Virus record (IMG/VR): IMGVR_UViG_3300031111_000008
Location: 28,112 to 92,111 of that record
Origin: a virus
Direction: 5' to 3' (one strand)
Length of the DNA: 64,000 nucleotides
Part shown: piece after piece, positions 40,362 through 64,000 of the stretch
How positions within the stretch are numbered: the stretch's first letter is position 1
Layout of the letters: each line of letters opens with the position of its first letter
The notes under the pieces: model-generated
What the model was told of the DNA's origin: nothing
Database searches by the model: none
What the model saw: the letters and a program-made list of their open reading frames with translations, nothing else
Position numbers and translations under genes: made by a program

Positions 40362-40379
40362 GGAGGGGCTCGGTTGGGT

Positions 40380-41521
40380 TCGTTCTGTCATGTTGTGTTG
40401 GGGTGAGTTTCGGCCTTCAGCGGCGGGGCAAGTTACGTTTGGTTATGGTAAGGATTTTTAACTTCCAAGCAAACAAATGAGGTAAGTTAAGGCAAGATTC
40501 TTCCAGGTTGATTCCCGTCAAGTTTAGGTCGGTTGTGTTTGGTTCGTGTTGGGTATGTTGTGGTTTGTTGCGATCAGGTAAGGACTTTTTAACTTCCAAG
40601 CAAACAAATGAGGTGATGTCAGGCAAGCCGCGTTATGGTGAGGCGAAATGAGGCACGGCTTGGCGAGTTGGGTTATGTTCAGGCGTGTTTCTACAGGGTT
40701 GGTTCTGTTCAGTTTAGTCATGGCAAGGCAAGGACTTTTCAATTTCCAAGCAAACAACTCTGGTAGGTTTAGTTTTGGTAGTGTAAGGCATAGGTATGGT
40801 GTAGCAGGTTATGTTTGTGTTTGGTTTGTCAAGGTTTGGATGTCGGAATGGGGATTTGAGAATACAAATGAGGCATGGTATGTCGGGTCTGGTTGCGTTG
40901 CGGAATGTTCGGGCTTGTTGCGGCATGTTGGGTTCGGGTATGTTGCGGCGCGGCAAGTTACGGTCAGTCTTGCTTTGCTTAAGGTTGGGTTTGTTAGGGT
41001 AAGGGTTTTAACTTCTAAGCAAACAAACGAGTTAAGTTACGTTGTGTCGTGTTTCGGTTTGGTGTGACATGTTAAGTTACGGTACGTCTTGGTAGATTTC
41101 GGTCTGTTCGGTTCGGTTTAGGCTGGGTTTGGTTCTTTCATGTTCTGTCAAGTTGAGGCAAGGACTTTTTCATTTTCAAGCAGACAAATGAGATTCGGCA
41201 AGGCGGGTTGGGGTTAGTTGGGGCGGTGTTCATTCGGTTACGACAAGGTCGGTTCCGTTGGGTTATGGTAAGGATTTTTAACTTTCAAGAAAACAAATAA
41301 GGCATGTTAGGATTTGTTGGGGAATGTCGTGTCGCGGTGGGTTTTGTTACGGAGTGTCATGTCGCGGTGGGTTTTGTTACGGAGCGTTATGGCAAGGACT
41401 TTTTGAGCAGACAAGCGTGGTGAGGCTAGGAGGGGACGGGCGAGGTAGGATATTTTTTGGCTAGTTTCGGCTCGGCTGGTTGTTTCATGTTCCGTCAAGT
41501 TATGGTAAGGACTTTTTCAAA
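40380..41521 (+). repeat. Non-coding repeat block with five-base periodicity
   Basis: No gene. Nine degenerate copies of an element (GGTAAGGACTTTTTAACTTC-type, continuing CAAGCAAACAAATGAGGT) start near 40447, 40577, 40727, 40849, 40997, 41157, 41267, 41391 and 41504. Between them the G/T-rich sequence falls into pentamers of the form N-G-(G/T)-N-N for long runs, for example GGTTA TGTTC AGGCG TGTTT. Several element spacings are multiples of five (130, 150, 270, 160, 110). The last element abuts the HNH start. Confidence 0.75.
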
Positions 41522-41522
41522 A

Positions 41523-42023
41523 ATGAAATATACAGGAAGACCTTTTGGACTTCATCCTCATCCAGCTCATTGGGAAAAGATCAGGAAACAAGCTCTGAAG
41601 CGGGATGGTTATCAATGCAGACTTTGCAACCATTCTCAGAAGGATGGATACAGGCTTGAATGTCATCATCGGCATTATGAAAATTGGGGCGAAGAGAACC
41701 TTGAAGACGTGACGATGCTTTGTATCGAATGTCACGATCTGATTACAAATTACAATCGAGAGTCTAGGTATGCAGAACGGGAATACTCTATGACTCCTTA
41801 TGTTTCTCCCGTTCATTTACAAGGGGATGAAGATGCGAAAGACGATGAAGATGAAGTGGATCGGACAGTCACCGTTGATTTGCCACAATGGGCAACTAGC
41901 AGACCCGTTAAACGTGTGGTCCCAAAGGATCAAGAAGATCTCGTCAAAATCGAAAAAAACGGAAGCCGATCTGATGGAAATGGGCCATTTGGAGTTTTTA
42001 GGGGGCCTTTACCTGGACAATGA
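41523..42023 (+). CDS. HNH endonuclease
   Basis: 166 residues from ATG 41523. ALKRDGYQCRLCN, LECHHRHYENWG and VTMLCIECHDLI are the HNH core with paired CxxC. The core ends near residue 85. The last 65 codons run into the next gene in another frame, so the original stop may have been lost. It begins right after the last repeat element of the block upstream. Confidence 0.8.
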   Translation: MKYTGRPFGLHPHPAHWEKIRKQALKRDGYQCRLCNHSQKDGYRLECHHRHYENWGEENLEDVTMLCIECHDLITNYNRESRYAEREYSMTPYVSPVHLQGDEDAKDDEDEVDRTVTVDLPQWATSRPVKRVVPKDQEDLVKIEKNGSRSDGNGPFGVFRGPLPGQ

Positions 42024-42465
42024 TGAGGAACCCTGTATTCCAGAATTGTTGATCGAAGCAACTCTTCTAGGAGGAGCAAAAAAATTCAAGGAAGGTCCGA
42101 AAGCAAAAGCTGGAATTTTTGTCATTGCCCCTGCGAAAATCAAGTATGACGGTCCAAAGGACGCGGAAGAACTCTGGGAATCTCCCGATTTCCGTTCCCG
42201 TACTCCGGCCAAGATTGGGCAGAGCAAGGTGATGAGAACTCGCCCAATTTTCCACGAATGGGAAATTGAATTCGAGATAAACTTTGACGATGAGATGCTC
42301 GATGAGGAAAGATTGTTGGAGTGGGCCAAGGCGGCTGGTGCCCAGGTAGGACTTGGTGATTGGCGTCCACGGCATGGAAGATTTTTGGTTAAGGTGGTCG
42401 AAGGAAAGAACGGGAAGTCTGTGATGAGCAAAAAGAAGCGGAGGATGGTAGCGGCGGAAAGCTAG
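41827..42465 (+). CDS. Conserved phage protein of unknown function
   Basis: 212 residues from ATG 41827; ATG 41851 is an alternative. WIGQSPLICHNGQLADPLN at the start, LEFLGGLYL, IPELLIEATLLGGAKK, MRTRPIFHEW and LGDWRPRHGRFLV follow an order I recall from many phage proteins without assigned function. The layout of small beta strands is compatible with a ferredoxin/RAMP-like fold, which I cannot show. The first 65 codons overlap the HNH gene out of frame. Confidence 0.6.
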   Translation: MKMRKTMKMKWIGQSPLICHNGQLADPLNVWSQRIKKISSKSKKTEADLMEMGHLEFLGGLYLDNDEEPCIPELLIEATLLGGAKKFKEGPKAKAGIFVIAPAKIKYDGPKDAEELWESPDFRSRTPAKIGQSKVMRTRPIFHEWEIEFEINFDDEMLDEERLLEWAKAAGAQVGLGDWRPRHGRFLVKVVEGKNGKSVMSKKKRRMVAAES

Positions 42466-42516: not shown

Positions 42517-42518
42517 GT

Positions 42519-42590
42519 TAGGAAGCAAAAATGAGAACCCTCCTTATCGTCGATTGTTCCGCAGTTTGTCACAAAGCATTCTCCGGATTC
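42519..42590 (+). repeat. Left direct repeat: copy of the exonuclease gene 5' end
   Basis: TAGGAAGCAAAA followed by ATG and 36 further bases identical to the start of the exonuclease gene at 44985, then scattered third-position differences to about 42590. Together with 44972-45043 it flanks the Cas12-like gene and array. Confidence 0.85.
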
Positions 42591-42725
42591 GACGGTTCGA
42601 TGGGTACTTTGGTGAAGACTATCGAGGAGGAGGGCAAGGAGAAAGAGTTGCGGGAGATCGTCGGGGATGTCTGGCAGGAGATCGAGAGGTCTTTGCGGGT
42701 GAAGAGGAAAAAGAGGTACGAGTGA
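42531..42725 (+). pseudogene. Chimeric ORF: exonuclease N-terminus joined to RecA C-terminus
   Basis: 64 codons. The first 18 residues (MRTLLIVDCSAVCHKAF) equal the exonuclease start. The last 40 (GTLVKTIEEEG, LREIVGDVWQEIERSL, KRKKRYE) align with the RecA C-terminus in this window (GKLIKMAEEDP, MRDLVLETWDGIEEAL, LRKKRYG). It looks like a deletion scar between two core genes. Intact and with its ribosome site, so a small protein may still be made. Confidence 0.7.
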
Positions 42726-42814
42726 TGCCATGCACTCTCTCAGCCTTGTTCGTCGCGATTATCGAGCTGGTGATATTCTTGTTCATGCTTTTGGAGACGG
42801 TTGGGAGGAAGTAA
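42725..42814 (+). CDS. Tiny membrane protein
   Basis: 29 residues, start overlapping the previous stop (TGATG). One hydrophobic span (ALFVAIIELVIFLFMLL). It sits between the chimera and the Cas12-like gene, ending five bases before the nuclease ATG. Unknown. Confidence 0.45.
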   Translation: MPCTLSALFVAIIELVIFLFMLLETVGRK

Positions 42815-42818
42815 AAAC

Positions 42819-44246
42819 ATGGGGAAGGAAAAACGAGATAGACCGAAACGGAATATAGGGGTAATAAAATTTGAGATTTTGAAGCCTTTGGGAGGGATGA
42901 CCTGGAAGGAATTGTCGAACATCCTTCGCGACGTTCGTTATAGAACTCAGCGTCTTGCCAACAAGTTTATGAGTGAGAGGTTTTTGGAGGCTAAGCTGCG
43001 CCAGAGTAATCCAGGAAAGGAAATTCCGAAAACGTCCATTGGGGAATTAAACAGAGTTCTTTTGGAGGAATTGATTAAAGAAAAGAAAAAGAAGAGGGAG
43101 GAAGTAAAGGAGTTTTCTAGAGTGGGGGCGTTGTGTTCCACAGTGTATGACGCTCTCCATCAGTATAATTTGTACGCGCTAACTACCAAATCTGCTTGGA
43201 CAAAGGTTTTGCGAGGAGAATCTTCCTTACCAACTTTCAAAAATAACATACCGATACCCATTCGATGTGATGGGGATGGGCGCAAGAGGTTGGCGAGAAG
43301 TTGGCGGGGAGGTGTCGTGCTTCGGTTGATGGTTTGTTTACGTCCATATCCCCGAGTGCTTTTGAAAACAAAGAGATTGAGTGATGGGGCTAAGACTGTT
43401 TTGGAAAGATTGTTGGATAATCCCGACCAGCTGGAAAGTGGTTATCGGCAGCGGGCTTTCGAGGTCAAGTATGACGAGAAGAAGAAAAAGTGGTGGTTGT
43501 ATGTTACTTACGACTTTCCTCCCGAGAAAGTGGAAGTTTCTAAAGACATCGTTGTGGGAGTTGATCTAGGATATGCTTGTCCTGCGTATGCAGCTCTGAG
43601 CAATGGTGAAGCTCGTTTGGGATGGAAAGTTTTTGCGGGGATTGCAGCAAGAGTAAAGCGGATACAAATAATGACTTTTGCCACAAGACGGAACATGTTG
43701 AGGGGAGGAAGATCAAGTTTGTGTGAGGACACGGCCAGAAGTGGGCATGGAAGGAAGAGAAAGTTGAAATGTACAGAAGCTCAGCAAGGAAAGATAAATG
43801 ATGCTTATACAACAATGAACCATCAGATTTCGAGGGCGGTAGTAGATTTTGCTGAGAGAAATCATGCAGGCATAATCCAAGTCGAGGATCTGTCGGGTCT
43901 AGATGATTATCTATCTGGAACATTCTTGGGGGAGAGATGGCGATACTACCAGCTGCAACAATACATCGAATATAAGGCAGAGCAGTGTGGGATTGGGTTT
44001 CGGAAGGTTAATCCTAGGTACACGAGCCGCCGCTGTAGCAAGTGCGGTTATATCAACAATGGGTTTACTAGAAAGTCCAGAGATTCAAATAAAGAGAAGG
44101 GAGGAAAGACTGTCAAGTTCGAGTGTCCCGAGTGTGGACACAAGAGCGATCCAGATTACAATGCCGCTAAGAATTTAACGGTGTTGGGTGTGGATGCTTT
44201 GATTGAGAACCAATGTAAAAAACAAGGAATAGAATTGAGTGTTTGA
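42819..44246 (+). CDS. Compact Cas12 (type V, Cas12f/TnpB-like) nuclease
   Basis: 475 residues from ATG 42819 (GGGAGGAAG upstream). RuvC-I is VGVDLGYACPAYAAL (Asp249), RuvC-II GIIQVEDLSGLDDY (Glu356), RuvC-III SDPDYNAAKNL (Asp446). A zinc ribbon C406-x2-C409 ... C436-x2-C439 lies between II and III. The N-terminal 240 residues are basic and helical, as in TnpB/Cas12f recognition lobes. With a CRISPR array immediately downstream and no transposon ends or TnpA, a guide-RNA-directed DNA nuclease of a miniature type V system is the best reading. No cas1, cas2 or cas4. Confidence 0.85.
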   Translation: MGKEKRDRPKRNIGVIKFEILKPLGGMTWKELSNILRDVRYRTQRLANKFMSERFLEAKLRQSNPGKEIPKTSIGELNRVLLEELIKEKKKKREEVKEFSRVGALCSTVYDALHQYNLYALTTKSAWTKVLRGESSLPTFKNNIPIPIRCDGDGRKRLARSWRGGVVLRLMVCLRPYPRVLLKTKRLSDGAKTVLERLLDNPDQLESGYRQRAFEVKYDEKKKKWWLYVTYDFPPEKVEVSKDIVVGVDLGYACPAYAALSNGEARLGWKVFAGIAARVKRIQIMTFATRRNMLRGGRSSLCEDTARSGHGRKRKLKCTEAQQGKINDAYTTMNHQISRAVVDFAERNHAGIIQVEDLSGLDDYLSGTFLGERWRYYQLQQYIEYKAEQCGIGFRKVNPRYTSRRCSKCGYINNGFTRKSRDSNKEKGGKTVKFECPECGHKSDPDYNAAKNLTVLGVDALIENQCKKQGIELSV

Positions 44247-44454: not shown

Positions 44455-44940
44455 GGTGGAGATACCAGTGAAATGAGGACTGTCTTCAGGGATAGGGAAC
44501 GAATACGGGCGGAGGGTGCGGGTGGAGATACCAGTGAAATGAGGACTGTCTTCAGGGTATCGAAAGCCATGGCGGACATCTCCAAGGTGGAGATACCAGT
44601 GAAATGAGGACTGTCTTCAGGGGAAAGCCGTCGATGGTAATTGAAAGCTCTGGTGGAGATACCAGTGAAATGAGGACTGTCTTCAGGACATAGCGTAAAC
44701 CTACGTGCATGATGCGGGGTGGAGATACCAGTGAAATGAGGACTGTCTTCAGGGTTCGTCGGTAACTGTCTGACGGTAAATACGGTGGAGATACCAGTGA
44801 AATGAGGACTGTCTTCAGGGCAAAAGCAACGTGCTGACTATGCGTTGGGGTGGAGATACCAGTGAAATGAGGACTGTCTTTAGGGACTTCAGCGCGTCGA
44901 CTGCGGTGGAGATACCAGTGAAATGAGGACTGTCTTCAGG
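44455..44940 (+). CRISPR. CRISPR array, 8 repeats and 7 spacers
   Basis: 36-base repeat beginning GGTGGAGATACC and ending CTGTCTTCAGG. Repeat starts: 44455, 44521, 44586, 44652, 44718, 44784, 44849, 44905. Spacers are 30, 29, 30, 30, 30, 29 and 20 bases and all different. Seven repeats are identical; the seventh ends TTTAGG instead of TTCAGG. The last spacer is ten bases short. The repeats also contain the small GGT/ACC hairpin at their 5' end. Confidence 0.97.
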
Positions 44941-44971: not shown

Positions 44972-45043
44972 TAGGAAGCAAAAAATGAGAACCCTCCTTA
45001 TCGTCGATTGTTCCGCAGTTTGTTACAGAGCATTCTTCGGAAT
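44972..45043 (+). repeat. Right direct repeat: authentic exonuclease gene start
   Basis: Matches 42519-42590: same TAGGAAGCAAAA leader with one more A, the same first 13 codons, then small differences. Lies 32 bases after the last CRISPR repeat. Confidence 0.85.
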
Positions 45044-45827
45044 CAAAAATCAGCTCTCACATGAAGACGAGCCAACCGCTGTCATCTACGGCTTCTTGAC
45101 TCAGCTTCTAGCCATCAAGGAAGATTTCTACGCGGACGGAGTCGTATTCACGTTCGACTACGGCAGAAGCCTGCGCCGGGAAGTCTATCCTAACTACAAA
45201 TCCTCTCGCAGGACAAAGAGGAAAGAGCAATCTATAGAGGACAAGATCCTCTTCAGCCAGCTTCAAGCCCAGATGTACCAACTCAGGACGGAGATCCTTC
45301 CTGAAATGGGGTACAAGAACGTCTTCTTCCAGAAAGGCTACGAAGCTGATGATGTCATAGCCTCTCTCTGCCATAATTCTTTGGCGAAGGACGAGTACGC
45401 AATCGTCGTCTCGAACGACGAGGACTTGTTCCAGCTACTCACAAAACGGATTTCGATTTGGAATCCCTCTTCCCACAAACGCATTACCCTGAAGTCCTTT
45501 CAAAAGCAGTATCGAATCTCAGCGCCGCAGTGGGCGGACGTGAAAGCGATTGCTGGTTGTGATACGGATGACGTGGCAGGTGTGGCAGGCGTCGGCAACA
45601 TCACGGCCTGCAAGTTCCTCGGCGGGATTCTTAAGCCGACGACAAAAGCCCACAAGAAGATCGTCGAAAGTAGAAACCTTTGGGACAGGAACCTCCCATT
45701 AGTGAAGCTTCCTTACGAGGGAACGGAGACGTTCGTGATCCAAGAGGACAAGATCAAACAGAAGAAGTGGGATCAGATGATGGAGAAGTACGGCATGGAG
45801 AGCTTGAAGGGCGAAACCCCGTTGTGA
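44985..45827 (+). CDS. 5'-3' exonuclease (FEN/Pol I N-terminal type)
   Basis: 280 residues. LLIVDCSAVCYRAF, VVFTFDYGRSLRREVYPNYKSSR, GYEADDVIASL, IVVSNDEDLFQLL and AGCDTDDVAGVAGVG give the acidic metal ligands and the helix-hairpin-helix of the FEN family. It removes RNA primers and flaps and completes the split polymerase I set (exonuclease here, proofreading at 32754, polymerase at 34564). Confidence 0.92.
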   Translation: MRTLLIVDCSAVCYRAFFGIKNQLSHEDEPTAVIYGFLTQLLAIKEDFYADGVVFTFDYGRSLRREVYPNYKSSRRTKRKEQSIEDKILFSQLQAQMYQLRTEILPEMGYKNVFFQKGYEADDVIASLCHNSLAKDEYAIVVSNDEDLFQLLTKRISIWNPSSHKRITLKSFQKQYRISAPQWADVKAIAGCDTDDVAGVAGVGNITACKFLGGILKPTTKAHKKIVESRNLWDRNLPLVKLPYEGTETFVIQEDKIKQKKWDQMMEKYGMESLKGETPL

Positions 45828-52021: not shown

Positions 52022-52701
52022 TGGTTTTTATTTCTCCACTTCTCGGCTTTTGATTTGAAGTTTTTTGACAAGGCGATTTCCGGTGGGTATCTCTTTAGCC
52101 GTTGCCGAACTCTTTCCCGACTAATTCCAAGCCACCGAGCCCAATCTGATATGCAACCGGATTTCTTGTTGAAAGTGTACCAAATTCCTGCTCGCCTAGC
52201 TTGCAGTTCTTGGAAAGTTATCCACTGAAAGTTTTCTGGCCCGTACTTTCGACTCTCATCGATTCTCGCGAGTACCTTATTTTCGGGAGGATGTCCTACG
52301 TCAGCGGCGAAGTTCAAATACGAATTTTTCCACCTCTTGCAAAGCTCATTGGGGTAGCGGAATTTCAATCCAGCCCACCTATAGTAAAACAGTGTTTTTG
52401 ATTGTCCTCCACTTTTTCCCGGTTTCTTATATTTGTGAGCACACTCTTGGCAGTGGGTGCTTATTCCTCCTCGCAGATTTCCAGTGGTGTAGAGATTGTA
52501 CGATCCGCAATCGCACAAACCAACCCACTTGGATTGGATTGAAGTACATGGTTGAGACTTTTTGGATCTCTTCCTGCCCGCGTAAGCTACGATTTTGAGA
52601 TGCCCAAAAGTTTCTCCAATCAGGTTTTTGAAAACGGCGTGTGAGTTGAGGGGTTGGGCTTTTACAATTTTTCCCGTTAGCAGATTGTATTTACGAGGCA
52701 T
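52018..52701 (-). CDS. HNH/NUMOD-like homing endonuclease family protein
   Basis: 227 residues from the ATG complement at 52699-52701. NLIGETFGHLKIVAYAG, GLCDCGSYNLYTTGNL, HCQECAHKYK, FYYRWAGLKFRYPNELCKRW and RIDESRKYGPENFQWIT follow the layout of phage AP2/HNH homing proteins; the C-terminal SDWARWLGISRERVRQRL is a helix-turn-helix. A stub of the same family lies at 29996. Confidence 0.7.
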   Translation of the reverse strand: MPRKYNLLTGKIVKAQPLNSHAVFKNLIGETFGHLKIVAYAGRKRSKKSQPCTSIQSKWVGLCDCGSYNLYTTGNLRGGISTHCQECAHKYKKPGKSGGQSKTLFYYRWAGLKFRYPNELCKRWKNSYLNFAADVGHPPENKVLARIDESRKYGPENFQWITFQELQARRAGIWYTFNKKSGCISDWARWLGISRERVRQRLKRYPPEIALSKNFKSKAEKWRNKNQ

Positions 52702-53362
52702 TTTTCTCTCTTTCACTATTGTTGATCACTTCTCCAAGATGGATTCGATTTGCTGGGACGGAAGGATTCTCGGGCTGACATTTTTCAACATATCTTGCAG
52801 CCGTACGGCGAGATAAGCCGGTTTTTTCCATGATTCTCTTGTAGGTCAGTCCCGATTTTCTCATGCGATAGACTACACGAGGATCCATTTTGGTTGTCCC
52901 AGGCTTTCTTCCTTTGTACTTTCCCTTCTTTTTGGCGATGGCGATTCCGGCAGCTTGTCGTTCTCTTCTGGTTTCCTGCTCCATTTCGGCGACGGCGAAT
53001 AGCACGGAGGCGATGAGTTTCCCGCCCGCTCCTGAAAAATCCAGCTGTTGGGTGACGGAGACTACACGGATATTTTTTTCACACCAGTCACATAGGGTAT
53101 TGATGCCGTCTTTCAGCGAACGTGAAAGACGATCCAACTTCCAGACGACGACTGTTTTGATCTGCCCGTTGAAGATCATTTGTTGCAATTTTTTCAGTTC
53201 AGGACGGTCGAGGTTGTCGCCCGTCTGCTTGTCGACGAAGAAGATCACATCCTTCCTCTTGTAGCAATTGCCTTTCAGCCACTTGACGATCTCGGAACGC
53301 TGCCCAGCAGCATTTTGAGAGCAAGTGCTGACGCGAATGTACACTGCTGTTGATGGGTTCAT
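52691..53362 (-). CDS. Serine recombinase (resolvase/invertase type)
   Basis: 223 residues. AVYIRVSTCSQN holds the catalytic Ser, VVWKLDRLSRSLKDG and AEMEQETRRERQAAG the other catalytic and dimer-interface residues. The C-terminal GLTYKRIMEKTGLSRRTAARYV is a Hin-type HTH. Full small-resolvase length. It could resolve multimers or invert a segment; no clear inverted sites were seen in the window. Confidence 0.92.
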   Translation of the reverse strand: MNPSTAVYIRVSTCSQNAAGQRSEIVKWLKGNCYKRKDVIFFVDKQTGDNLDRPELKKLQQMIFNGQIKTVVVWKLDRLSRSLKDGINTLCDWCEKNIRVVSVTQQLDFSGAGGKLIASVLFAVAEMEQETRRERQAAGIAIAKKKGKYKGRKPGTTKMDPRVVYRMRKSGLTYKRIMEKTGLSRRTAARYVEKCQPENPSVPANRIHLGEVINNSEREKNAS

Positions 53363-54432
53363 TTTAACTCCAGAGTCGTTTTTCTTTCTGCGCTGGTTAG
53401 TATGGTGGAAGATTTTTCAATACGCACTATGACAATAGAATCATCTTGTGGCATTGGTGGTTCTGCGAAACTCTTGAAGATGATTACAGATTGATCTTTG
53501 CATTCTTTCACGGTGGCCGAATCGAAAGCCCACACGGTAGCCGAGTTGTAAGCCTCTACGGTAGCCGAGTTGTAAGCCGTCACGGTAGCCGAGTTGTAAG
53601 CCCTTACGGTAGCCGAGTTGTAAGCCTCTACGGTAGCCGAGTTGTAAGCCTCTACGGTAGCCGAGTTGTAAGCCTCTACGGTAGCCGAGTTGTAAGCCTC
53701 TACGGTAGCCGAGCCGGAAGCCGTCACGGTAGCCGAATCAAAAGCCCACACGGTAGCCGAGCCGTAAGCCTCTACGGTAGCCGAGCCGCAAGCCGTCACG
53801 GTGGCCGAATCGCGAGCCCTCACGGTAGCCGAGCCGTAAGCCTTTACGGTAGCCGAGTTGCAAGCCGTCACGGTGGCCGAATCGCGAGCCCTCACGGTAG
53901 CCGAGCCGCAAGCCTCTACGGTAGCCGAGCCGCAAGCCCTCACGGTAGCCGAATCGTAAGCCGTCACGATGGTCGAGCCGGAAGCGTGTACGGTAGCCGA
54001 GTCGGAAGCCCATACGGTAGCCGAATCGTAAGCCGTCACGGTAGCCGAGCCGGAAGCGTGTACGGTAGCCGAGTCGGAAGCCGTCACGGTGACCGAGCCT
54101 ACAGCGTATACCTCTCCTTCCTTAACCTCTCTTTTTCCTTCTCTGATGATTTTCTTCTCGGCCCAATCGACCAGCCCCAACCTGGTGCGGCGTTCGATGT
54201 CTCGTACGCCCGCCCAGTCTGGGAGGATGTCTTGATCGAGTTGAAAGTTCCACTCGTCAAGAGGTTTTGAGAAGTCTTTTTCGGGCGGCGTAATCTCCAC
54301 GCGGACGATATTCGGACCCCGAACTCCGTCTGCGTTTAGAGAATGCTCGTCGATGATGTCTTCGTGAGAATCTGTTTTGACCGACCAAAAGATCTTATCT
54401 TTTGTCAGAACGAAAGAGGCTGGTTGACACAT
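53359..54432 (-). CDS. Octapeptide-repeat protein, copy 1
   Basis: 357 residues. Residues 1-110 are a unique domain (DKIFWSVKTDSHEDIIDEHS, DWAGVRDIERRTRLGLVDWA); 110-315 are about 26 copies of an eight-residue unit N/D/G-S-A-T-V-x-A-x. Such regular units should stack as a beta-solenoid. A short tail follows. Copy 2 at 60367 has the same N-terminus almost base for base. Role unknown; an adhesive or ice-binding-like surface, or a ruler, are guesses. Confidence 0.75.
   Translation of the reverse strand: MCQPASFVLTKDKIFWSVKTDSHEDIIDEHSLNADGVRGPNIVRVEITPPEKDFSKPLDEWNFQLDQDILPDWAGVRDIERRTRLGLVDWAEKKIIREGKREVKEGEVYAVGSVTVTASDSATVHASGSATVTAYDSATVWASDSATVHASGSTIVTAYDSATVRACGSATVEACGSATVRARDSATVTACNSATVKAYGSATVRARDSATVTACGSATVEAYGSATVWAFDSATVTASGSATVEAYNSATVEAYNSATVEAYNSATVEAYNSATVRAYNSATVTAYNSATVEAYNSATVWAFDSATVKECKDQSVIIFKSFAEPPMPQDDSIVIVRIEKSSTILTSAERKTTLELK
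53512..54100 (-). repeat. 24-bp tandem repeats coding octapeptides (copy 1)
   Basis: Period exactly 24 bases, on the plus strand of the form ACGGTAGCCGAGTYGTAAGCC plus three. Units differ mainly at the two variable residues. A run of identical units (GAG TTG TAA GCC pattern) near 53540-53700 indicates recent duplication. Confidence 0.9.
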
Positions 54433-60366: not shown

Positions 60367-61422
60367 TCAATCAACCATTGTCAATTTTGCCGATAGCCCC
60401 TGTGTGCTACGGAAAATTTCAACTTCGTTTGTTCGATAGACAAGAACGTTTGAATCATCTTGTGGCTTTGGTGGTTTTGTTGAACTCTTGAAGACAATTA
60501 CAGATTGATCTTTGCACTCTTTTACGGTAGCCGAGCCGCAAGCCGTCACGGTGGCCGAATCGCGAGCCCTCACGGTAGCCGAGCCGTAAGCCTGCACGGT
60601 AGCCGAATCGCGAGCCCTTACGGTAGCCGAGTCGAAAGCCCGCACGGTAGCCGAGTCGAAAGCCTTTACGGTAGCCGAGTCGAAAGCCCGCACGGTAGCC
60701 GAATCAAAAGCCCACACGGTAGCCGAGCCGTAAGCCCTCACGGTAGCCGAGCCGTAAGCCCGCACGGTAGCCGAGTCGAAAGCCCGCACGGTAGCCGAAT
60801 CGCGAGCCCTCACGGTAGCCGAGCCGGAAGCCGTCACGGTAGCCGAGTTGCAAGCCCGCACGGTAGCCGAATCGCGAGCCGTCACGGTGGCCGAGCCGGA
60901 AGCCCTCACGGTAGCCGAGTTGCAAGCCGTCACGGTGGCCGAATCGCAAGCCGTCACGGTGGCCGAGTTGTGAGCCCGCACGATGGCCAAATCGCGAGCC
61001 CATACGGTAGCCGAATCGTAAGCCGTCACGGTAGCCGAGCCGGAAGCGTGTACGGTAGCCGAGTCGGAAGCCGTCACGGTGACCGAGCCTACAGCGTATA
61101 CCTCTCCTTCCTTAACCTCTCTTTTTCCTTCTCTGATGATTTTCTTCTCGGCCCAATCGACCAGCCCCAACCTGGTGCGGCGTTCGATGTCTCGTACGCC
61201 CGCCCAGTCTGGGAGGATGTCTTGATCGAGTTGAAAGTTCCACTCGTCAAGAGGTTTTGAGAAGTCTTTTTCGGGCGGCGTAATCTCCACGCGGACGATA
61301 TTCGGACCCCGAACTCCGTCTGCGTTCAGAGAATGCTCGTCGATGATGTCTTCGTGAGAATCTGTTTTGACCGACCAAAAGATCTTATCTTTTGTCAGAA
61401 CGAAAGAGGCTGGTTGACACAT
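60367..61422 (-). CDS. Octapeptide-repeat protein, copy 2
   Basis: 351 residues from the ATG giving MCQPASF. The N-terminal 105 residues equal copy 1 (53359). About 24 octapeptide units follow, rich in RA and FD forms, whereas copy 1 has long EAY runs. The tail differs (VLVYRTNEVEIFRS). The DNA flanks nearly match those of copy 1, so gene conversion or segmental duplication is likely. Confidence 0.75.
   Translation of the reverse strand: MCQPASFVLTKDKIFWSVKTDSHEDIIDEHSLNADGVRGPNIVRVEITPPEKDFSKPLDEWNFQLDQDILPDWAGVRDIERRTRLGLVDWAEKKIIREGKREVKEGEVYAVGSVTVTASDSATVHASGSATVTAYDSATVWARDLAIVRAHNSATVTACDSATVTACNSATVRASGSATVTARDSATVRACNSATVTASGSATVRARDSATVRAFDSATVRAYGSATVRAYGSATVWAFDSATVRAFDSATVKAFDSATVRAFDSATVRARDSATVQAYGSATVRARDSATVTACGSATVKECKDQSVIVFKSSTKPPKPQDDSNVLVYRTNEVEIFRSTQGLSAKLTMVD
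60523..61085 (-). repeat. 24-bp tandem repeats coding octapeptides (copy 2)
   Basis: Same 24-base period as 53512-54100 with a different order of variants. The first four units (in gene direction) match copy 1; the rest have diverged. Confidence 0.9.
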
Positions 61423-61465
61423 TTTTTGGGTTCTCTCTTTTTTGGAGAAATGATAAGCGATTGAC

Positions 61466-61717
61466 TCACCGGCGGCGGATGAAGCCGTCACGGCAGATCA
61501 CCAGCATATCGACCAGCTTATCACCTTCTGCTCTGGGGAAGTTGGTAACCAGTTCACCAGAAGCCAAAGGGGGTCGGGATAGGTCTAGGTAGTGCTCCCA
61601 AACTCTGGCGGTGTCCCGTTCGCGCGTTGATGCTATCGGGCCGTCGTTGTCGGCCAGGGTCCAGATAGAGCCGTATTCGCCATCGATACGGGAAACGGCT
61701 AGGGTTGCGTATTGCAT
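61466..61717 (-). CDS. Small protein of unknown function
   Basis: 83 residues from the ATG at 61715-61717 (AAGAGG upstream). Beta strands (ATLAVSRIDGEYGSIWTLAD), helix, basic end. An AATGATAA element follows its stop. Confidence 0.5.
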   Translation of the reverse strand: MQYATLAVSRIDGEYGSIWTLADNDGPIASTRERDTARVWEHYLDLSRPPLASGELVTNFPRAEGDKLVDMLVICRDGFIRRR

Positions 61718-63824: not shown

Positions 63825-64000
63825 GTCGACCTTCGAGTGGCTCATCGTGGCCCAGGTCGCTGCCGAGAGGCCCGTCGACCTTCGAGTGGCTCATCGTGGC
63901 CCAGGTCGCTGCCGAGAGGCCCGTCGACCTTCGAGTGGCTCATCGTGGCCCAGGTCGCTGCCGAGAGGCCCGTCGACCTTCGAGTGGCTCATCGTGGCCC
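63825..64000. repeat. 49-bp tandem repeats at window end
   Basis: Units starting GTCGACCTTCGAGTGG at 63825, 63874, 63923 and 63972 are identical; the last is cut by the window edge. 49 is not a multiple of three, so a coding repeat is unlikely. Confidence 0.95.

Follow-up and report, generated by a model that had tools for sequence, protein, structure and literature searches.

A probable guide-RNA array of a phage-carried VIPR system upstream of HNH nuclease and vipr genes

The block of five-base periodicity that lies between a recA/UvsX-like gene and an HNH gene in the virus record IMGVR_UViG_3300031111_000008 is, with a probability of roughly 0.93, a vrRNA (guide-RNA) array of a phage-carried VIPR system that also comprises the HNH and vipr genes directly downstream. 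The stretch analysed here (the window) spans 64,000 nucleotides (record bases 28112-92111), and the block occurs as a single copy in the whole 92,111-bp record. VIPR systems have been public since 2026, when a preprint described them as a possible forerunner of CRISPR (PMC13142463), and a literature search for VIPR terms returned no paper besides this one. According to the available text of the preprint, they consist of phage-encoded RAMP proteins (Vipr, ~20 kDa) and guide RNAs (vrRNA) that are built from GGY/NN pentamers (YNNGG/GGY-NN, related consensus sequences being allowed), 9-16 per guide, and a constant 3' tail (PMC13142463). The NN pairs are described there as reading DNA with one base skipped ("1-nt skip"), mostly that of competing phages and satellites; the systems occur mainly in viruses or proviruses, in seven types that differ in array form and accessory genes (vap1-6 among the latter), with predicted enzymes (e.g. 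nucleases) in types III-V (PMC13142463). For the systems of phage SUSP1 and of P. fulva the same text reports that RNA production, Vipr binding, the 1-nt skip rule and repression have been shown (PMC13142463). The new element is an array of a kind that is already known, though it was described only very recently, and it departs from that kind in some features. Homology, predicted fold and anatomy give good support to its membership of VIPR, and we infer its function in the window phage by analogy with these systems.

The periodicity, which the original prediction had read from the raw sequence, is strong and unique in the window. Identity at lag 5 is 0.424 in the block, compared to 0.280 in dinucleotide shuffles (n = 300; z = 10.3), with echoes at lags 10, 15, 20, 25 and 30 (z of 6.4 to 7.9), and when the 64 kb are scanned in sliding windows of 300 bases, all maxima of period-5 power fall within 40.2-41.3 kb, where they reach up to 10.4 versus 2.97 at best elsewhere. 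In line with the predicted plus-strand pentamers, a pattern of 11 consecutive GKYNN units (at most one mismatch) occurs 21 times, every time in the block and on the plus strand, and 0 times in shuffles (n = 100). The consensus on that strand is G-(G/T)-(T/C)-N-N, in which position 2 is G or T in equal shares (i.e. looser than the published GGY), position 3 is T in 61%, C in 29% and A in 10% of cases, and positions 4-5 are near even. The location first proposed (40380-41521) was right, but the true tract is slightly longer, since it starts directly after the recA stop (about 40362) and runs to 41513; the recA/UvsX-like gene forms its 5' limit and the ribosome-binding region of the HNH gene its 3' limit. 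A coding function, which had been excluded from the outset, is out here as well, because a period of 5 is incompatible with codons and stops are present in all frames; open reading frames inside the block reach up to 139 aa because the pentamers contain few stops.

Searches for known elements and for direct relatives of the block gave little. No Rfam family scored above its gathering score in the 64-kb window, no tRNAs were found in it, and the counts of promoters and terminators were not above those in shuffles. Direct DNA relatives of the block were absent from the phage collection (named phages), and none were found when relatives were sought via RecA. The suggestion that the conserved element might be traced in other phages also failed, as its 16-mer gave 13 single matches in viral contigs, all without pentamers and for that reason taken as chance.

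The block can be parsed into nine units, each located upstream of a copy of a tail, GGYAAGGACTTTTTAACTTCCAAGCAAACAAATGAGG, the common close of the units being GGYAAGGA(C/T)TTTT... (Table 1; tail starts from local alignment). This tail is well kept in six units and decayed or truncated in three. Of the nine conserved elements of about 38 bases that had been proposed, the AAGGA-T-rich core is confirmed but the full length is not, CAAGCAAACAAATGAGG being recognisable in ~7 of the nine copies. The tail spacings (~130, 150, 120, 151, 159, 110, 124 and 113) are multiples of five in some cases, as had been claimed, but not in others. A unit holds 16-26 pentamers, as parsed between tails with 1-2 tail pentamers included, versus 9-16 in the preprint, and several pentamers in the array are off-consensus or out of phase. 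The stub that closes unit 9, AAGGACTTTTT, occupies the position expected for the ribosome-binding site of the HNH gene. Neither a guide-plus-tail unit nor the tails alone folded better than shuffled sequence, and no consensus pairs were found. The earlier candidate of one large structured RNA thus survives as RNA but not as a single structured molecule, an array of separate guide RNAs being the best match.

Table 1. Units of the predicted vrRNA array and the two genes that follow it, in window coordinates
Feature	Coordinates	Strand	Remarks
vrRNA unit 1	40362..40482	+	pentamer tract; tail 40450-40482
vrRNA unit 2	40483..40613	+	regular tract part 40517-40579; tail 40580-40613, exact match to consensus
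vrRNA unit 3	40614..40757	+	tract; tail 40730-40757
vrRNA unit 4	40758..40873	+	irregular tract; degenerate tail ~40850-40873
vrRNA unit 5	40874..41031	+	longest regular tract, 22 in-phase pentamers 40872-40981; tail 41001-41031
vrRNA unit 6	41032..41192	+	tract; tail 41160-41192
vrRNA unit 7	41193..41302	+	tract; tail 41270-41302
vrRNA unit 8	41303..41414	+	tract with recent 30-bp tandem duplication 41313-41391; truncated tail 41394-41414
vrRNA unit 9	41415..41517	+	tract; tail stub 41507-41517
HNH nuclease gene	41523..42023	+	166 aa; between array and vipr; Pfam HNH E 0.037; NCBIfam IscB HNH region E 4e-7
vipr	41833..42465	+	210 aa; predicted RAMP/Cas7-fold guide-binding protein; phrog_4652

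The identification of the array leans on the second of the two downstream genes. Its product falls in phrog_4652, a family of unknown function (E 9e-52), and is 36% identical to the SUSP1 Vipr over 194 aa (E 1e-39). The SUSP1 sequence used, KT454805.2 28474-29061, is taken to be the vipr of the preprint, whose text gives no accession, because of where it lies, because it has the G-rich loop and because pentamer RNAs flank it. Residues R137, W143, G173, G175, R178 and G182 are invariant in Vipr (GLGDWRPRHGRF loop), and the G-rich loop GLGDWRPRHGRF of the window protein is common to tract-adjoining proteins in many loci. The predicted structure (pLDDT 92.3, pTM 0.85) matches that of the Csm3/Cas7 subunits found in type III CRISPR complexes (Foldseek E 5.7e-6, probability 1.00; VIA Z 11.9 over 136 residues), which points to a Cas7/Csm3 RAMP fold. 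Vipr homologues are present in 129 phage records. One cultured phage, Mycobacterium phage LittleE (L410, 22801-28346), has a Vipr homologue, gp34, annotated as hypothetical, and GGC-NN tracts in its tail-gene region, and is a convenient relative for experiments.

Linkage between pentamer tracts and Vipr is found in both directions. When viral contigs were scanned for runs of 14 GKHNN units, at least 120 stretches were obtained; among the viral matches listed, tracts are up to 176 pentamers long, their triplets come in GGC, GGY, GTC and GTT flavours, and NN is near-random in many (entropy about 3.5 of 4 bits). When loci were fetched by pentamers only, the Vipr HMM matched in 91 of the 120 viral loci listed, compared to 0 of 85 controls, and 284 of 297 tracts, among the matches listed, lay on the vipr strand at a median gap of 226 bases. 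When they were fetched by Vipr only, a tract was present within 4 kb in 76 of 80 loci versus 1 of 71 control loci (a weak tract), and all but one of 275 tracts shared the strand of vipr. The anatomy of one viral locus (L095) equals that of the window, its tracts being closed by a repeated element. In other viral loci with a Vipr match (e.g. L056, L120, L122) the triplets are GTC throughout, from which it follows that a T is permitted at position 2. Among bacterial genome stretches fetched by the pentamer pattern, many of them short of flanks, Vipr was present in just 3 of 119, so that in cellular genomes the pattern by itself does not identify a VIPR locus. Two stretches with GTT-NN or GTY-NN tracts (L058, 7962-11115; L045, 12647-12801) had no Vipr by HMM in what was fetched, and their partner is perhaps a more distant RAMP, or one located beyond the stretch.

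The gene between the array and vipr has weak but consistent matches to HNH domains (Table 1), and its 3' end and the start of vipr share bases 41833-42023, read in different frames. HNH homologues adjoin vipr in 30 relatives, namely those with the closest Viprs, and a tree of 173 Viprs places every one of the 31 HNH-linked members in a single clade of 34 (support 0.95), which includes the window and excludes SUSP1. Conversely, HNH lies beside vipr in 31 of the 34 clade members and in none of the other Viprs examined, and it is therefore probable that the gene encodes a vipr-accessory protein (vap). The overlap of HNH and vipr, 125-245 nt in the same relative frame, recurs in most clade members (L256, L257, L259-L270).

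The composition of the NN pairs bears on what the guides read. In 89 loci with 5,889 pairs (those within a locus not being fully independent), a mix of sense and antisense codon positions 1-2 is favoured by 84 log units over contig background and by 97 over a mix of positions 2-3, a statistic over many phages and not a test of the window phage. Guides that read coding DNA but pass over its wobble bases should give such a fit. For the window itself, a search of viral contigs for natural targets of four guides (8-dinucleotide cores, 1-nt skip) gave none that was convincing: the cores matched 6 to 50 stretches, with flanking dinucleotides agreeing at about chance rate. In the phage's own record, matches with a 1-nt skip were not in excess over those with other skips.

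By analogy with the described systems, the array would be transcribed on the plus strand, each unit giving an RNA whose part made of G(G/T)Y-NN pentamers is variable and whose 3' tail is constant. On this guide Vipr would polymerise as Cas7 does on crRNA, presumably with a subunit on every pentamer that grips the G(G/T)Y triplet and presents the NN pair; jointly, the NN pairs would recognise double-stranded DNA as NNxNNxNN (i.e. with one target base skipped per unit). Likely targets would be genes that belong to competing phages or to satellites, of which codon positions 1 and 2 would be read and the wobble base passed over; their transcription would be blocked by the binding, and the HNH nuclease encoded alongside, presumably an accessory protein, may cut them. 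Expression, processing, targets, subunit stoichiometry and HNH cleavage are inferences as far as this phage is concerned. A bolder and decidedly tentative proposal, to which we give somewhat less than even odds, is that the clade represents a nuclease-armed phage VIPR lineage in which Vipr with HNH cuts rival genomes and does not only repress them, by means of guides with a loosened G(G/T)Y scaffold and a tail that lacks structure, and which here forms a two-system interference island together with a miniature Cas12 CRISPR locus.

The alternative that deserves most attention is that the array has decayed or become inactive, its former guides drifting. This would explain the relaxed position 2, the irregular pentamers and the truncated tails: the tails of units 4, 8 and 9 are degenerate or truncated, several pentamers have lost consensus or phase, and T at position 2 is commoner in the window than in the closest relatives examined. 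However, the vipr and HNH frames are intact, units 2, 5 and 6 have long in-phase tracts with good tails, and the Vipr loci with GTC throughout show a T at this position outside the window too. Decay of the array as a whole is therefore judged unlikely, although part of it is possibly decayed.

The remaining explanations do without guides. The original prediction had named a replication origin or partition site, i.e. protein-binding DNA made of 5-bp iterons, and the position of the block among replication genes (DNA polymerase A, clamp loader, RecA/UvsX-like, 5'-3' exonuclease) would suit it. Against this, tracts across diverse phages follow vipr and not replication genes, on one strand only, two in every five bases are free to vary, and a SUSP1 tract of like kind is, in the text of the preprint, transcribed to Vipr-bound RNAs (PMC13142463), which makes an origin or partition site very improbable. 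Amplification of a pentamer, also named at the time, would in its simplest form be a functionless expansion of a microsatellite by slippage. The recent 30-bp tandem duplication in unit 8 is of that nature, but the triplets and their phase persist for hundreds of bases with near-random NN between them, and tracts keep to a single gene family and to its strand, so that slippage is barely conceivable as the origin of the block. Similar tracts in hundreds of unrelated phages, beside one protein family, on its strand and with near-random NN, leave these earlier candidates without support. A regulatory RNA or sponge for a ring-shaped, TRAP-like RNA-binding protein would also have triplets at 5-nt spacing: TRAP binds triplets about two bases apart, and the tracts do consist of a constant triplet and two free bases. 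The protein linked to them is, however, a predicted Cas7-fold RAMP, and the codon-position signal in the NN pairs is not expected of a spacer, for which reasons there is very little to be said for it. Readings of the triplets as primase sites or as TRAP-like sites were both dropped on identification of Vipr.

The guide-RNA array is part of a larger run of genes, in the order recA/UvsX-like, array, HNH, vipr and a Cas12-like gene, to which a further, separate array belongs. The Cas12-like protein (481 aa; 42801-44246, plus strand) matches PADLOC Cas12u3 (E 7e-79), Cas12f (E 2e-75) and NCBIfam TnpB (E 5e-38), and is followed by a CRISPR-like array (44456-44940) in which eight copies of a 35-nt repeat enclose six spacers of 30-31 nt and a shorter one (21 nt). 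These spacers had no match in the sequences searched, nor did they match the VIPR guides. This stretch comes directly after vipr, so that two RNA-guided systems adjoin in one phage. The start of a 5'-3' exonuclease gene (TAGGAAGCAAAA-ATGAGAACCCTCCTTAT) is present twice, at 42518-42725 and 44973-45827, on either side of the Cas12/CRISPR stretch, as if the latter had been inserted with duplication of the 5' end of that gene. Elsewhere in the window, a paralogous gene pair on the minus strand (53359-54432 and 60367-61491) shares its N-terminal part and has long runs of the 8-residue repeat SATVxAxx, which account for 24-bp tandem repeats; a serine-recombinase-like gene (52691-53362) adjoins one of the two. 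The record ends (63825-64000) in 3.6 copies of a perfect 49-bp direct repeat, possibly an assembly artefact.

The array was found independently of the preprint, from raw sequence, and the two-way linkage of tracts and Vipr, the strand agreement and the codon-position signal in the NN pairs add tests that do not depend on it. With a coherent HNH-linked clade of phage Viprs, target cutting by some VIPR systems becomes a directly testable question, and a VIPR array beside a phage-borne Cas12 CRISPR array bears on how viral RNA-guided systems meet and spread.

Among known systems, the window comes close to the VIPR of the Escherichia phage SUSP1, with which it shares a homologous Vipr, strand-matched triplet-NN arrays with constant 3' tails beside vipr, and carriage by a phage. 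It differs in the accessory gene (a small vap1 in SUSP1, an HNH nuclease here), in the array, which is one upstream block of about nine units, in the triplet (GGY versus G(G/T)Y) and in a Vipr that belongs to the separate HNH-linked clade. The tail, too, is A-rich and predicted to be unstructured, whereas that of SUSP1 is reported to fold, a conserved tail structure being reported for the SUSP1 clade and not demanded of every type (PMC13142463). With the HNH-linked loci of uncultivated viruses (e.g. L256-L270, L272-L288) it has in common an HNH gene that immediately precedes vipr and in many cases overlaps it, and tracts beside vipr; most of these relatives, however, have the main array downstream of vipr and mostly G at position 2, whereas in the window the array lies upstream and half of these positions are T. 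The predicted Cas7-family fold, and guides with a constant and a variable part each, recall the Csm3/Cas7 proteins of Class 1 CRISPR-Cas, but no cas operon and no direct repeats flanking free spacers were found at the window array, and its variable part, unlike a Class 1 spacer, is a pentamer repeat that would be read with gaps.
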